From: Actinomycetales bacterium
Lineage (GTDB): Bacteria; Actinomycetota; Actinomycetes; Actinomycetales; Actinomycetaceae
Assembly (NCBI GenBank): GCA_015655375.1
Contig: JAATFD010000044.1
Span: 1-64,000 of the forward strand
Direction: 5' to 3'
DNA length: 64,000 nucleotides
Shown here: piece by piece, positions 4,885 to 57,772 of the stretch
How positions within the stretch are numbered: the first letter of the stretch is position 1
Layout of the letters: every line of letters starts with the position of its first letter
Notes under the pieces: generated by a model
What the model saw: the letters and a program-made list of their open reading frames with translations, nothing else
Told to the model about the DNA's origin: nothing
Databases searched by the model: none
Translations under genes and position numbers: made by a program

Positions 4885-6224
4885 GACGAGGCCTCCGCCG
4901 TATCGACGGCACTGCCCCGACCCTCGCGCAGCAGGACGGCCGCGCCGTGGGCAGGCAGGTCCTCCGCCCGAGCGAGCGCATCGAGTGGACCCGACACCGA
5001 GGCCAACGCCTCCCGGGAATACTCGACGATCTGTTGGGAGCGCAGAAACTGTGTGACGTTGAGACCACTGGAGAAGCGAGCGGTCCCTCCGGTGGGCAGG
5101 ACGTGGTTCGAGCCCGCCAGATAGTCGCCGAGCGGCACCGGTGTGAACGGTCCGACGAAGATCGCACCTGCATTGTGCACGTGGGCCGCGACCTGGGAGG
5201 CATCCCGGGTCTGGACCTCAAGGTGCTCCGGCGCATAGGCATCGACGACCCTCAGCCCGTCCTCATTGTCATCCACGAGGACAATGCCCGACTGCGGACC
5301 GGACAGCGCCTGCAGAATCCGCTCGGTGTGCTCGGTCCGCTCGGCCTGACCGGGCAGAAGCGCCTCGACGGCATCGGCCAGGACGACGTCGTCGGTGATG
5401 AGCACGCTAGCCGCTGCGGGATCGTGCTCGGCCTGGCTGAGCAGGTCAGCAGCGACGAGCGTCGGGTCGGCGGAGGAATCGGCGAGCACCGCGATCTCTG
5501 TGGTCCCGGCCTCCGCGTCAATGCCGACCGTGCCGCGCACCAAACGTTTGGCGGCCGCGACATAGATGTTACCGGGTCCGGTGATGACGTCGACGGGCTG
5601 GCAAAGGTCCTCCCCGTCCGCAAAACCATACGTGAGCCCGGCGATCGCCTGGGATCCACCCATCGACCAGACCTCATCGACGCCGAGGAGGGCGCACGCC
5701 GCAAGGATCGTCGGGTGCGGCAGACCGCCGAACTCCGCTTGCGGGGGCGAGGCCAGCGCGATCGAAGCGACGCCGGCCACCTGCGCCGGAACGACGTTCA
5801 TGACGACCGAGGACGGGTAGACGGCAAGCCCGCCTGGCACGTACAAACCGACCCGGCCGACCGGCACCCACCGTTGGGAGACACTCCCACCGGGCACGAC
5901 CTCGACGCGCGCCGGGGACGGCAGCTGCCGGGCATGACCGATCCGGTTGTGCTCGATGGACAGCTCAAGGGCATGGCGGACGTCCGGGTCGAGGTCGTCC
6001 AGCGCGGTGGCAATCGCCTCGGCAGGGACGCGCAGCCGGTCGGGGCGCACATGGTCGAACCGTTCGGCGAGGTCGTAGAGGGCCTCGGCCCCCCGTTTGC
6101 GAACGTCCTCAATGAGAGGTCGGACTGCCTCGGCGGCCGCATCCGCGCCAAGGGCGGCACGGGGAAGCATCCCCCGCAGCTCCGGCGTGGTCGGTCGCAC
6201 GCCCCGAAGGTCGATGCGTCTCAT
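4881..6224 (-). CDS. hisD: Histidinol dehydrogenase
   Basis: A zinc-dependent, NAD-linked enzyme of 447 residues that performs the last two oxidations of histidine synthesis. Family signatures seen are [26 protein letters not shown], the zinc and substrate region [29 protein letters not shown], and the C-terminal [22 protein letters not shown]. Length is normal for the family. It is the first gene of the operon. A TAGGCT hexamer sits exactly six bases before the ATG, with GGAGG in between, so transcription may start at or next to the start codon. Confidence 0.96.
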
Positions 6225-39755: not shown

Positions 39756-39790
39756 TTGACCTACGCTACCGTAGACCTACGGTAGCGTAG
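39756..39790 (+). promoter_or_regulatory. Tandem palindromic operator overlapping the acyl-CoA ligase promoter
   Basis: CTACGCTACCGTAG (39761-39774) is followed two bases later by its exact reverse complement CTACGGTAGCGTAG (39777-39790). Each half is itself a near-palindrome (CTACG...CGTAG), giving two operator-like sites 16 bp apart. A TTGACC at 39756 and a TACGGT at 39778 (16-bp spacer) make a promoter buried in the repeat. This is what a TetR-family repressor site looks like. The ligase ATG is 28 bases downstream. No regulator gene is adjacent. Confidence 0.75.
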
Positions 39791-39818
39791 GGCCGGTCGA
39801 CGAGTCTGGAGGAGTGCA

Positions 39819-41657
39819 ATGTCACTGACGGAAGAGCTGAGGACCGGATATGCCCCCGGAGTCCCGAACCGGATCAACGTCACGGACGATCGAATCACCG
39901 ACGTCCTCGAGCAGGTGACACGCCGGTATCCGGACCGTGCTGCCCTCGATTTCTTCTCCCGGGCGACGTCCTACAGCGATCTCGTCGACCAGTCGCGACG
40001 GGCCGCCTCCGTGCTGAAGGAGGCCGGGGTTCACCCCGGCGATCGCGTTGCCATGGTCATGCCCAACTGTCCTCAGCACATCGTCGCGGTCTACGCGACC
40101 CTGTACCTCGGTGCCATCGTCGTCGAGCACAATCCGTTGGCGCCCTCCCCGGAGTTGCACACGGAGTTCGAGCGTCATGGGGCCCGCGTCGTCATCGCCT
40201 GGGAAACGATCCTCGACAAACTCGACTTCCTCGACCCTTCGACGGCCCTCTTCGCGATGGATCTCACCCGAGGCCTCCCTGCGGCCTCCCGAGCTCTGCT
40301 GCATCTGCCGATCCCGGCCGTACGCCAGCGTCGCGACGAGATGACGGGCCCAGTTCCCGACGGAGTTCCGTCGTGGGATCGCGCCGTGGCCCACTCCCCT
40401 CGTTGGAACGGGACCTGTCCGGTCGGACCCGATGACCCGGCCTTGTTGATCCACACTGGAGGCACGACCGGCGTCCCGAAAGCCGCCACGCTGTCGCACC
40501 GCAATCTCTGCTCGAACGTCATCCAGGACATCGGCTGGGTCCCCGAGCTCCACGAGGGAGCGGAGGTCTTCGACCTGGTTCTGCCCCTCTTCCATGCCTT
40601 CGGATTCGGCGTGGCCTTCCTCGCCGGAATCCGCATGGGAGCGACCCTCGCAGTCTTCCCGAAGTTCGACACGGCGATGGTCCTGACGAGCCAGCGACGC
40701 TTGCCCTGCACCTTCTTCGTCGGCGTCGCTCCGATGTTCGAGCGTCTGCTCAACAAGGCCGACGAGCTGGGTTCAGACCTGACTTCGATCAAGAGTTCAG
40801 TGGCCGGCGCGATGCCCCTGTCTCCCGAGCTCGCCCGTCGGTGGGAGGCCTCCACCCACGGAATCATTGCCGAAGGATACGGCATGACCGAGGCCTCCCC
40901 CATCATCCTGGGTTCTCCCGTTTCCCCGTTGCGTCGCCACGGGACACTCGGTCTGCCGTACCCGTCCACCGACGTGCGCATCGTCGACCCGGAGGATCTC
41001 TCCCGGGACGTCGCTCCCGGCGAGGTCGGGGAGCTCATTGCCTCGGGCCCCCAGGTCTTCCTCGGGTACTGGGATCGCCCCGATGAGACCGCTGAGGTCC
41101 TCGTCGACGGCTGGCTGCGCACCGGCGACCTCGCGCGCCTCGAGGACGGATTCATCGTCATGGCCGACCGTCGCAAGGAAATGATCAACTCCTCCGGTTT
41201 CAACGTCTATCCGAGCCAGGTCGAGGAAGCCGTCCGCTCGATGCCCGGGGTCCGCGACGTCGCCGTCGTCGGGTTGCCGAGTGGCAGCTCCGGTGAGTCC
41301 GTCGTCGCGGCAGTCGTCCTTGAGGCCGGGGCCTCTGTGACTCTGGAGGACGTGCGCACGTGGGCGGAACGCTCGATCGTCCACTATGCGCTTCCGCGTC
41401 AGATCATCGTCATGACCGAACTGCCGCGTTCCCAGATCGGCAAGGTCATGCGCCGCCGGGTCAAGGAGGAAATCCTCAAGGGCATGCAAGCGACAGCCGG
41501 CCTAGCCGACCAGGCACAGAACGCTGTCAGCGCAGTGGCCGCCGAGGCGTCCGAGCGACTGAGGAGCATGCGCGAGGCCAAGTCCGAGCGGGATTCGCCC
41601 CAGTCCAGCGCGCCCACGGTCGATCCTGAGGCCGACGGAACGGGCCCGACACGCTGA
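39819..41657 (+). CDS. fadD: Long-chain-fatty-acid--CoA ligase (AMP-forming)
   Basis: An adenylate-forming enzyme of 612 residues. The ATP loop is LLIHTGGTTGVPKAATLSHRNL, followed by LPLFHAFGFGVAFL, GYGMTEASPI, DGWLRTGDLARL and the lysine region near RSQIGKVMRRRVKEEIL. It activates fatty acids to acyl-CoA for lipid synthesis or degradation; chain length cannot be read from the sequence. A C-terminal tail of about 60 residues (Ala/Glu-rich helix, then a polar stretch) extends beyond the usual end. GGAGGAG precedes the ATG. The palindromic operator just upstream implies fatty-acid or acyl-CoA responsive control. Confidence 0.9.
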   Translation: MSLTEELRTGYAPGVPNRINVTDDRITDVLEQVTRRYPDRAALDFFSRATSYSDLVDQSRRAASVLKEAGVHPGDRVAMVMPNCPQHIVAVYATLYLGAIVVEHNPLAPSPELHTEFERHGARVVIAWETILDKLDFLDPSTALFAMDLTRGLPAASRALLHLPIPAVRQRRDEMTGPVPDGVPSWDRAVAHSPRWNGTCPVGPDDPALLIHTGGTTGVPKAATLSHRNLCSNVIQDIGWVPELHEGAEVFDLVLPLFHAFGFGVAFLAGIRMGATLAVFPKFDTAMVLTSQRRLPCTFFVGVAPMFERLLNKADELGSDLTSIKSSVAGAMPLSPELARRWEASTHGIIAEGYGMTEASPIILGSPVSPLRRHGTLGLPYPSTDVRIVDPEDLSRDVAPGEVGELIASGPQVFLGYWDRPDETAEVLVDGWLRTGDLARLEDGFIVMADRRKEMINSSGFNVYPSQVEEAVRSMPGVRDVAVVGLPSGSSGESVVAAVVLEAGASVTLEDVRTWAERSIVHYALPRQIIVMTELPRSQIGKVMRRRVKEEILKGMQATAGLADQAQNAVSAVAAEASERLRSMREAKSERDSPQSSAPTVDPEADGTGPTR

Positions 41658-41686: not shown

Positions 41687-42322
41687 TCAGCCGTCGAGCA
41701 GCGTCGGCTCCCGATTCGTCTGCTCGGTCGCCGTCTTGTGCGAGCGAGCAGCTCGACGTTTGCGTCCGCTGGGTGGAGCATCAACTGAGGTCCCATCCGA
41801 CGCGCCATTGTCCGCAGCCTTCTGCGGAGCCTCGGCCGACGCAGGAGCATCCGCGGATTCCCGAACGGTAGCCGCCTCGTCGCGGCCTCTAAGTTCGGCG
41901 ATCGCGGCCTCGAAGTCGTCGAGGGTCTTGAACCCACGGTAGACGGAGGCGAAGCGAAGGTAGGCGATCTCGTCGAGCTCGGAGAGGAACGGCAGGATGG
42001 CCTTCCCGACCTCTTCGGAGGAAACGATCGACACGCCGGAGGAGCGCAATGTCTCCTCGACCTGTTGGGCGAAGACCGCCAGATCCGTCTCCGAAACGGG
42101 TCTGCCCTGACACGCCTTGCGGACACCGGAGACGACCTTGTCGCGGGAAAACAGCTCAACAACTCCGGAGCGCTTGACCACCTGGAATGAAGAGGTCTCC
42201 AGAGTGGTGAATCGCCGCTTGCATTTCATGCACTCACGGCGCCGACGAATCGAGGCGCCATCATCCGCGATTCTCGTGTCGACGACTCGAGAATCTGGGT
42301 TGTGGCAGAAGGGACAGTGCAC
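41687..42322 (-). CDS. nrdR: Transcriptional repressor NrdR with C-terminal extension
   Basis: Zinc-ribbon plus ATP-cone repressor of ribonucleotide reductase genes. The first zinc cysteines are [17 protein letters not shown] and the second pair [16 protein letters not shown]. The ATP-cone follows ([29 protein letters not shown]). The core ends near residue 150 ([17 protein letters not shown]), as in other NrdR proteins. About 60 extra residues, Ala/Asp/Ser-rich then basic, follow. The GTG start has AGGAGG five bases upstream. It lies downstream of the LysM gene, as in mycobacteria and corynebacteria. Confidence 0.95.
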
Positions 42323-42415: not shown

Positions 42416-42919
42416 TCACTCGGTCGGCAGCATGACCTCCTGGCCGACCGTGAGTCCGCCTTGAATTCCATTGAGCTGCTCAATGTCCACGACGACTTGC
42501 TCCAGCGGACGGTCCGATCCAACCGCGGAGGCCAGGCCCCACACGGATTCGCCTGCCGTGACCGAATGCTCGACAGTCGGACCCGAATAAGCATCGGGCT
42601 GGGCCAGCAGCCCCGCTCCGACTCCGACGCCCACTCCCGCACCGACGGCGAGCACGGTCAACGCTGCACGCGCGACCAAGGACGCGCCGCTGCGACTACT
42701 CGTCCGCACGGCCGGGCTCATCGTTGCACTTGCACGGGCCGGGCGCCGACGCATGGCCGGGTCTTCCGCACATAGCACCCGGCGACGCCGCTGAACCGAG
42801 GGGGCCGTGGAGATCTCCCGGACATCGGCCAGTGGCTCATCAGGAATGGCCCGCAGACGCGGATGGCGATCGACCGAGCCACGTTTGGACGCTGCGGGAG
42901 CAACAGTAATGGCACTCAT
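42416..42919 (-). CDS. LysM membrane protein, ChiZ/DivS-like SOS division inhibitor candidate
   Basis: A 167-residue protein: a basic, disordered cytoplasmic N-terminus (1-75), one transmembrane helix (LVARAALTVLAVGAGVGVGVGAGLLA), then an extracytoplasmic LysM-like domain (HSVTAGESVWGLASAVGSDRPLEQVVVDIEQLNGI...VGQEVMLP). Architecture and position (divergent from lexA, followed by nrdR) match M. tuberculosis Rv2719c (ChiZ) and C. glutamicum DivS. Those are LexA-controlled and delay division after DNA damage. The same role is inferred here from synteny, topology and LexA boxes. AAGGAG lies eight bases before the ATG. Confidence 0.82.
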   Translation of the reverse strand: MSAITVAPAASKRGSVDRHPRLRAIPDEPLADVREISTAPSVQRRRRVLCAEDPAMRRRPARASATMSPAVRTSSRSGASLVARAALTVLAVGAGVGVGVGAGLLAQPDAYSGPTVEHSVTAGESVWGLASAVGSDRPLEQVVVDIEQLNGIQGGLTVGQEVMLPTE

Positions 42920-42942
42920 CTCATGGTCTCCTTCTCACCGAG

Positions 42943-42975
42943 ATCGTACATCTGTTCGACGAACACCTGTACGAT
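42943..42975. promoter_or_regulatory. Palindromic divergent lexA/LysM promoter with two mirrored LexA boxes
   Basis: A 33-bp near-perfect palindrome: ATCGTACA and TGTACGAT arms around GTTCGACGAAC. It contains two SOS-box-like sites, CGTAC-ATCT-GTTCG (42945-42958) and CGAAC-ACCT-GTACG (42960-42973). Each differs by one base from the actinobacterial consensus CGAAC-N4-GTTCG. TACGAT -10 hexamers point outward from both ends, one toward LysM and one toward lexA, so LexA bound here would cover both -10 elements. Confidence 0.75.
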
Positions 42976-43007
42976 AACACTGGGATTCGAGGAATGTCGA
43001 GACCCGC

Positions 43008-43023
43008 TCGAACATATGTTTCA
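43008..43023 (+). promoter_or_regulatory. Third LexA box in the lexA leader
   Basis: TCGAACATATGTTTCA matches the actinobacterial SOS box TCGAAC-N4-GTTCGA with the right spacing and two changes in the second half-site. It lies about 115 bases before the lexA GTG and downstream of the TACGAT -10 element. A further degenerate copy (TTCGAACGGGGTTCA) follows with a spacer one base too short. Confidence 0.55.
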
Positions 43024-43137
43024 CATTCGAACGGGGTTCACATACCCTGACATCGACTAGTGGACCAGCACCCATGTGCATCTGCGGACGGCATAGGCCG
43101 ACGCGGGGGTCCTGAAATCGGACAGGAAGAGGTCACC

Positions 43138-43842
43138 GTGAGCGAAAGAGCCCCACTCTCGCAGCGCCAGAGCCAGATCCTCGACGTCGTGCGCGCCAGT
43201 GTGGACGATCATGGGTATCCCCCCTCCGTCCGCGAGATCGCCGAGGCAGTGGGCCTGGCCTCACCCTCGACCGTCAAACACCATCTCGACGCGCTGGAGC
43301 GCGCCGGATACCTCCAGCGGGTGCCAGGACGGCCCCGCGCACTGGAGGTCGCCGCCCTCGAGCCCACCTCCGATGTCCAGGACACCGATACCATCGCGGA
43401 GGCCGCGGATAGCGGCCGGACGAATGTCGTCACCATCGAGTTGCCCGTGGGCGTGGCCGACGACGGATCGGCCTCGTCGATCCCCCTGGTCGGACGGATC
43501 GCCGCCGGCGCCCCCATCACCGCCGAGCAACAGGTCGAGGACGTGTTCGAGCTCCCGACCCGGCTGACCGGGCATGGCGCCCTCTTCATGCTGGAGGTCC
43601 ACGGCGAGTCCATGGTCGATGCGGGCATCCTCGACGGCGATTTCGTCGTTGTGCGTTCCCAGGCGACTGCCTCGGACTCCGAGATCGTCGCGGCCATGAT
43701 CGATGGCGAGGCCACCGTCAAGGTCCTCTCCCATGCCGGTGGACATGTGTGGCTGATGCCACGCAACGCCGACTACTCCCCGATACCCGGCGATGAGGCG
43801 ACGATTCTCGGCAAGGTCGTCACCGTCCTGCGGTCGCTGTAG
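43138..43842 (+). CDS. lexA: SOS repressor LexA
   Basis: Repressor and self-cleaving serine protease, about 234 residues. The N-terminal winged helix reads LSQRQSQILDVVRASVDDHGYPPSVREIAEAVGLASPSTVKHHLDAL. The Ala-Gly cleavage site is in GRIAAGAP near residue 122, the catalytic Ser in VHGESMVDAGI near 157 and the Lys in EATVKVL near 194. RecA-stimulated autocleavage relieves repression. The GTG at 43138 has AGGAAGAGG upstream; the ORF-track extension to 43060 is leader sequence. Three LexA boxes upstream indicate autoregulation. Confidence 0.95.
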   Translation: MSERAPLSQRQSQILDVVRASVDDHGYPPSVREIAEAVGLASPSTVKHHLDALERAGYLQRVPGRPRALEVAALEPTSDVQDTDTIAEAADSGRTNVVTIELPVGVADDGSASSIPLVGRIAAGAPITAEQQVEDVFELPTRLTGHGALFMLEVHGESMVDAGILDGDFVVVRSQATASDSEIVAAMIDGEATVKVLSHAGGHVWLMPRNADYSPIPGDEATILGKVVTVLRSL

Positions 43843-56446: not shown

Positions 56447-57580
56447 TCAGAACCCGGCGTCCTCGGACGGATCGATGTCACTGGCAGCCGCCGCGCGGGG
56501 TGTCCCGCCAGCCGTGGCCGCTGCTGCGCCTTCTCCGGTTGCAGTGGTTCCGGCATCGGGGGCGGTCGCCATTCCGAGTTCGGTGAGGATACGTCCTTCG
56601 ATCTCATCGGCGAGCTGTGGGTTGTCAACGAGGAACTGCCGGACATTTTCCTTGCCCTGGCCCAGCTGGTCGTCCCCATAGGTGAACCAGGACCCCGACT
56701 TGCGGATGATCCCGTTGTCGACACCCATGTCGATGATCGAGCCTTCACGAGAGATGCCCTTGCCATAGACGATGTCGAACTCCGCCTGCTTGAAGGGCGG
56801 GGCCATCTTGTTCTTGACGACCTTGGCGCGCGTACGGTTGCCGACCGGCTGGCCAGCTTCCTTGAGGGTTTCGATCCGTCGGACGTCGATGCGCACGGAG
56901 GCGTAGAACTTCAGGGCCTTGCCACCCGTCGTCGTCTCCGGAGAGCCGAAGAAGACACCGATCTTCTCGCGCAACTGGTTGATGAAGATCGCCGTGGTGC
57001 CCGTCGCCGAGAGGGCGCCCGTGATCTTGCGCAAGGCCTGGCTCATCAGACGAGCCTGGAGCCCCACGTGAGAATCACCCATTTCGCCCTCGATCTCCGC
57101 CTTCGGGACGAGGGCTGCCACTGAGTCGATGACGACGATGTCGATACCCCCGGAGCGGATCAGCATGTCGGCGATCTCCAGCGCCTGCTCACCCGTGTCG
57201 GGCTGTGAGACGAGCAACGCATCTGTGTCGACGCCCAGGGCGCGCGCATACTCGGGGTCGAGCGCATGTTCAGCGTCGATGAAGGCGGCGTTCCCGCCGC
57301 CCTTTTGGGCGTTGGCTACCGCGTGGAGGGCAACCGTCGTCTTGCCGGAGGACTCCGGTCCATAGATCTCGACGACGCGACCGCGAGGAAGGCCGCCGAT
57401 TCCCAGGGCAACGTCCAGGGCGAGGGATCCCGTCGGGATCACCCGCACAGGGGGACGCGAGTCATCGCCGAGGCGCATGATCGAGCCCTTGCCGAATTGC
57501 TTGTCGATCTGCGAAAGCGCCAGCTCCAAGGCCTTGTTCCGGTCATTGGTGCCGCGCCCGCCCGATGTGTCCTTGGCCAC
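56447..57580 (-). CDS. recA: Recombinase RecA
   Basis: Strand-exchange ATPase and LexA co-protease of 377 residues. It has Walker [14 protein letters not shown] (about 74-82), [18 protein letters not shown], Walker [13 protein letters not shown], loop L1 with [19 protein letters not shown] and loop L2 [28 protein letters not shown]. The C-terminus is an Ala/Thr-rich tail ending in acidic residues. The GTG at 57580 has AGGAGG eight bases upstream; the longer ORF start is leader. A LexA box lies upstream. Confidence 0.97.
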
Positions 57581-57756
57581 GATGGGTTCCTCCTGTGCGG
57601 GCCTCTCCGGCCCCTTGTCCTGGCTGGTCTGGATCATGTGGTCCCCTCGCCGGGGCACATGGACGACGGTATGCCCGACCACTGGCACCTGGAACGCATG
57701 CCCTCATCACCTGTGGACAAGGGCGGTGTTCCACTCGCATCGATGAATAGACTATG

Positions 57757-57772
57757 TGGAACACCTGTTCGA
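57757..57772 (-). promoter_or_regulatory. LexA box upstream of recA
   Basis: Minus-strand TCGAACAGGTGTTCCA matches TCGAAC-N4-GTTCGA with a two-base difference at the end of the second half-site. A TAGTCT hexamer follows four bases later and could serve as the -10, placing the operator within the recA promoter. The recA GTG is about 175 bases downstream. Confidence 0.7.

Follow-up and report, generated by a model that had tools for sequence, protein, structure and literature searches.

What controls lexA and the divergent gene beside it in this member of the Actinomycetaceae, and why does the DNA between them carry a nearly perfect palindrome? The window analyzed here is a stretch of 64,000 nucleotides of contig JAATFD010000044.1, and the palindrome, ATCGTACATCTGTTCGACGAACACCTGTACGAT, lies at positions 42943-42975. 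It is 33 bp long with an odd centre, and 14 of its 16 positions pair with the reverse complement. No other odd-centred 33-mer within the 64-kb window reaches 14/16, and a first-order Markov model, used to simulate 20 windows of 64 kb, produced a single site of this quality. Scored with the LexA box consensus TCGAACN4GTTCGA (12 scored positions), the palindrome resolves into two boxes of 16 bp, neither with an assigned strand. Box 1, TCGTACATCTGTTCGA, at 42944..42959, is on the LysM-gene side and matches the consensus at 11/12 positions; box 2, ACGAACACCTGTACGA, at 42959..42974, matches at 10/12. The base pair 42959 is common to both boxes, so that their centres are 15 bp apart. Thus, the two LexA-like boxes in mirror orientation described in the initial annotation are confirmed, and the mirror symmetry of the 33-mer arises because two palindromic boxes abut.

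The genes on either side fit an SOS operator. The lexA gene (43138..43842, plus strand) encodes 234 aa matching TIGR00498 with 233 bits, with LexA_DNA_bind and Peptidase_S24 domains, the Ala-Gly cleavage site, and the catalytic Ser and Lys. The Ala-Gly, Ser, and Lys motifs are invariant in the family alignment, and the nearest LexA relatives of the window protein are Actinomyces/Schaalia records, which suggests that the organism belongs to the Schaalia-Actinomyces group. The divergent gene (42416..42919, minus strand) encodes a small membrane protein of 167 aa, with a hydrophobic segment at about residues 85-105 and a LysM-like C-terminus. Pfam LysM is found in 10 of 11 aligned members, but not in the window protein itself, where the LysM motif is nevertheless aligned. 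ChiZ and DivS act as suppressors of division once DNA is damaged, and DivS is reported not to be significantly similar to YneA (PMC3989709); YneA uses its LysM domain and its membrane segment to block FtsW (PMC13396833). Like YneA, ChiZ, and DivS, the window protein is small, has one hydrophobic segment and a LysM-like C-terminus, and is encoded next to and divergently from lexA, and we count the membrane segment and LysM motif expected of ChiZ/DivS-like inhibitors as present. Unlike YneA, it scores only 22.3 bits against the YneA equivalog model NCBIfam NF010723, below the cut-off of 60, and its inhibitor role is putative. We therefore regard the 42416..42919 product as a candidate SOS division inhibitor. 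The sequence thus supports the earlier placement of a LexA operator region between lexA and a LysM/transmembrane gene of the ChiZ/DivS/YneA type. Directly downstream of the LysM gene, after a gap of about 93 bp and on the same minus strand, is nrdR (41687-42322); it may be co-transcribed with the LysM gene, in which case the SOS response would also govern this repressor of ribonucleotide reductase.

Could the pair of boxes have arisen by chance? An alignment across the Actinomycetaceae had been proposed as a check on the palindrome. In the family set, lexA was found in 59 of 61 genomes, and the upstream regions were scanned in the lexA orientation. The pair, at a spacing of 14-16 bp, is kept in 54 of the 59 lexA loci, with box 1 in the same position, and the spacing is exactly 15 bp in 49, as in the window. 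Across the sampled genera of the family, the identity of LexA to the window protein drops to 45-67%, while the pair with its fixed spacing is retained. These loci are related, and the counts are not independent samples; the case for conservation consequently rests on the contrast between boxes and flanks in otherwise unconserved DNA, with the boxes near 2 bits of information in the family alignment and the flanks at about 0.1 bit. Conservation on this pattern provides the strongest evidence that the predicted pair did not arise by chance.

The pair also follows the divergent gene, with exceptions. In 10 family members, the divergent gene has no recognizable LysM domain, and its N-terminal/membrane part and the pair are kept in all 10. 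These genes (loci L020, L022, L026, L027, L032, L038, L042, L044, L046, and L053) have an MSA...RPxLRxV-like N-terminus. The N-terminal part of the divergent protein may be its functional core. All six Streptomyces records are without the LysM gene and without the pair, yet keep one box. In most Microbacteriaceae, the LysM gene is present and no pair was recognized by the consensus used. The link between the LysM gene and the pair thus appears strong but not absolute.

Where does transcription of the LysM gene begin? The only sigma-70-like promoter reported by an independent promoter scan within 42880-43140 is on the minus strand at 42971..43000, with TCGACA (43000-42995), an 18 bp spacer, and an extended -10, TGT-TATCGT (-10 at 42976-42971). 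This predicted promoter points inward through the pair from the lexA side. A counterpart is seen in 52 of 54 family loci, with the -10 beginning 2-9 bp ahead of the outer edge of box 2 and a -35 of TCGACA, TGGACA, or TAGACA typically 17 bp upstream of the -10. The counterparts have a mean score of 9.5, compared with 7.1 in shuffled flanks, and 89% vs 11% reach a score of 9. In most relatives, the promoter is farther from box 2 than it is in the window, by about 4-5 bp. The LysM transcription start should therefore fall inside box 2, so that boxes 1 and 2 would cover the start and the early leader, up to the ribosome-binding site. GTACGA is frequent as the right half of box 2 in class relatives; overlap with the -10 was considered as its cause, but such overlap is found only in the window and about 8-10 close relatives, and elsewhere in the class the box and the -10-like element are separate.

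A start inside box 2 places part of the palindrome in the LysM leader, as would be expected if its main role were that of an RNA hairpin or a terminator-like element and not that of a DNA operator. However, a transcript beginning there would lack most of the outer arm, and no terminator was called at the palindrome. Furthermore, the conserved bases are exactly those of the LexA consensus in both boxes, with variable centres, as expected of boxes. We consider the RNA reading extremely improbable, and we treat the palindrome as two LexA operators.

The initial annotation had instead read the TACGAT hexamers at the two outer edges of the palindrome (42970-42975, plus; 42948-42943, minus) as outward-facing -10 elements, between which one symmetric operator would repress lexA and the LysM gene in lock-step. 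Both hexamers are indeed present, and the pair is situated between the genes, as that model has it. The hexamers do not hold up as promoters, however. Neither has a -35 (2/6 matches at a 17-bp spacing for both), and among 54 family pairs the left TACGAT is kept in 1 and the right in 10, while the conserved promoters are found elsewhere. In the window, the LysM -10 candidate, read as its reverse complement, overlaps with the TACGAT on the right. The model meets a further obstacle in a third box on the lexA side, which had gone unnoticed in the initial annotation.

This box 3, TCGAACATATGTTTCA, at 43008..43023 (no assigned strand), matches the consensus at 10/12 positions, and its right half holds the -35 of the predicted lexA promoter. 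That promoter, at 43020..43048 on the plus strand, consists of TTCACA (43020-43025), a 17 bp spacer, and TACCCT (43043-43048). In 44 of 59 family loci, the start of box 3 is followed after 34-36 bp by a TANNNT; in relatives, the box has a conserved right half that reads GTTTGA, GTTTGC, or GTTTCA. The lexA gene would thus have a box of its own over the -35 of its own conserved promoter. Moreover, lexA of M. tuberculosis is reported, in the account given in PMC8151990, to be under a single box. Lock-step control of both genes by one operator is thus not supported, and we regard it as very unlikely.

The two halves of box 3 are unequal. The left half is nearly perfect, with 5.63, 6.00, and 5.79 of 6 matches in three sets, in a search that favoured the left half and core, and the GTTTGA-like right half has 4.63, 4.75, and 4.17. 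We suggest that the right half departs from the consensus because it also serves as the lexA -35. Janky and van Helden described an abundance of TCGAACA half-sites in actinobacterial lexA promoters, and asked about monomeric LexA binding there (PMC2248561). As judged from these sequences, the half-site asymmetry of box 3 needs no new LexA binding mode; a right half that doubles as a -35 would be a simple explanation of the lopsided SOS boxes reported for actinobacterial lexA promoters.

Boxes 1-3 are thus predicted to be operators of the LexA (SOS) type of Actinomycetota, with LexA binding and damage induction to be expected: the boxes are consensus-like, they adjoin or overlap predicted promoters, and a self-cleaving LexA is encoded beside them. 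We think it likely that the region contains two adjacent operators served by a common pool of LexA, with the LysM gene controlled by the pair and lexA by box 3. The boxes, their spacing, their conservation, and the positions of promoter-like sequences are observed here; the binding, the starts, the order of induction, and the division block are all inferred. In undamaged cells, one LexA dimer would occupy each of boxes 1 and 2. With their centres 1.4-1.5 helical turns apart, the two dimers would lie on opposite faces of the DNA, and they would cover the LysM start and about the first 30 transcribed bases and touch the -10. Such double occupancy would keep the LysM gene, whose product could be harmful as a division inhibitor, tightly repressed. 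On box 3, a dimer of its own would cover the lexA -35, giving autoregulation. After damage, RecA-stimulated self-cleavage would lower LexA, and both promoters would open, probably out of step, since two sites would hold the LysM gene shut longer than one site holds lexA. The expectation of a later and tighter LysM response comes from the presence of two sites, by analogy with colicin operons, and match counts do not rank the boxes. Boxes 1, 2, and 3 score alike in match count (12.0, 12.2, and 12.1 of 14), and unequal box strength was rejected as a cause of induction timing (Wilcoxon p 0.34 and 0.72). This assignment of boxes to promoters corrects the lock-step idea and provides a precise, testable map of SOS division control in the Actinomycetaceae.

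Might all three boxes instead form one cooperative array, through contact or a looped spacer, so that the whole complex governs both promoters? The boxes are within about 80 bp of each other in nearly all relatives, and distances between boxes 2 and 3 near 53, 64, and 74 bp in some class members would suit such an arrangement. In the window, however, this distance is 49 bp, and helical phasing of box 2 against box 3 in the family was not convincing (at a period of 10.5 bp, R was about 0.26, and other periods did at least as well). Furthermore, M. tuberculosis lexA is described in PMC8151990, as far as its account extends, as insensitive to the other boxes. A single cooperative array is therefore unlikely, and we retain the reading of two adjacent operators.

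How does this locus compare with known systems? In M. tuberculosis, the lexA-Rv2719c (ChiZ) intergenic region has four SOS boxes (Dullaghan et al. 2002, via PMC8151990). One of these controls lexA, and the divergent operon is served by the remaining three together with a PafBC motif, according to the summary in PMC8151990; the name given to the operon in that paper is Rv2019c-Rv2017c, which we take as Rv2719c and downstream genes. Compared by this published description, the present locus is similar in having a divergent lexA and SOS-induced membrane/LysM division inhibitor, here a predicted one, with several boxes between, and the conserved promoter positions seem to fit the same division of boxes, one for lexA and the rest for its partner. 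Unlike the M. tuberculosis region as described there, the window has three boxes, two of them with a common base pair, and no PafBC-type motif was found. The motif sought beside the LysM promoter (locus L001) was TGTCR-N11-TANNNT. A fourth LexA box is present in 8 of 50 relatives, in 7 of these over the LysM -35. These seven loci (L016, L022, L027, L039, L049, L050, and L056) carry TGTCTAGAAC or TGTCCAGAAC at that position and so have four boxes, the number reported for M. tuberculosis. The kind of locus is already known in outline from M. tuberculosis, and its assignment as a further member, an Actinomycetaceae version with a one-base-pair overlap, is solid at the level of sequence. A literature search found no LexA study in Actinomycetaceae; the same geometry may already be published for corynebacteria.

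The closest match in geometry comes from colicin plasmids. The ColE1 operator 31-mer, CTGTATATAAAACCAGTGGTTATATGTACAG, was found as an exact match in NC_001371 at 5063-5093, and an open frame follows it after 47 bp. As in the window, a coding region is closely preceded by two 16-bp LexA boxes that have one base pair in common and a centre-to-centre distance of 15 bp. Unlike the window, with TCGAACN4GTTCGA, the colicin operator has the LexA recognition sequence CTGN10CAG; it is on a plasmid and not the chromosome, and the gene products are unrelated. The likeness is presumably convergent. Overlapping boxes in colicin operons bind two LexA dimers, giving high affinity and low or no detectable basal expression (PMC2994835, PMC4482635). 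Colicin operons are thus another case of the same dimer geometry on a host-harmful gene that needs tight shut-off.

How far does the arrangement extend? In class relatives outside the family, the pair is mostly 16 bp apart, that is, abutting without a common base; the class sample has this spacing in 19 of 22 pairs. Most of the named relatives outside the family (L105-L133) likewise have a spacing of 16 bp instead of 15. The strict 15-bp pattern has a match in 29 of 397 phylum genomes, and lexA adjoins 9 of 30 newly fetched loci. We propose tentatively, and at somewhat less than even confidence, that a double-dimer operator (15-16 bp) on the inhibitor gene, together with a lexA box whose right half is also the lexA -35, recurs as a standard design in a large part of the Actinomycetia. 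If true, this would explain part of the TCGAACA half-site excess (PMC2248561) without monomeric or heterodimeric LexA, and it would make induction of the inhibitor later than that of lexA.

Other expected LexA targets in the genome were also seen to carry boxes. A LexA box, TGGAACACCTGTTCGA, lies at 57757..57772 (no assigned strand), upstream of recA (56447-57688, minus strand) in the same window, and another box accompanies a ruvA-like gene at a different place in the genome. With boxes at both of these genes, the predicted regulon context is sound. A further palindrome is found at 39760-39791, CCTACGCTACCGTAGACCTACGGTAGCGTAGG, with an even centre and 15/16 pairs, just upstream of an acyl-CoA synthetase-like gene at 39819. 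It is possibly the operator of a local regulator.
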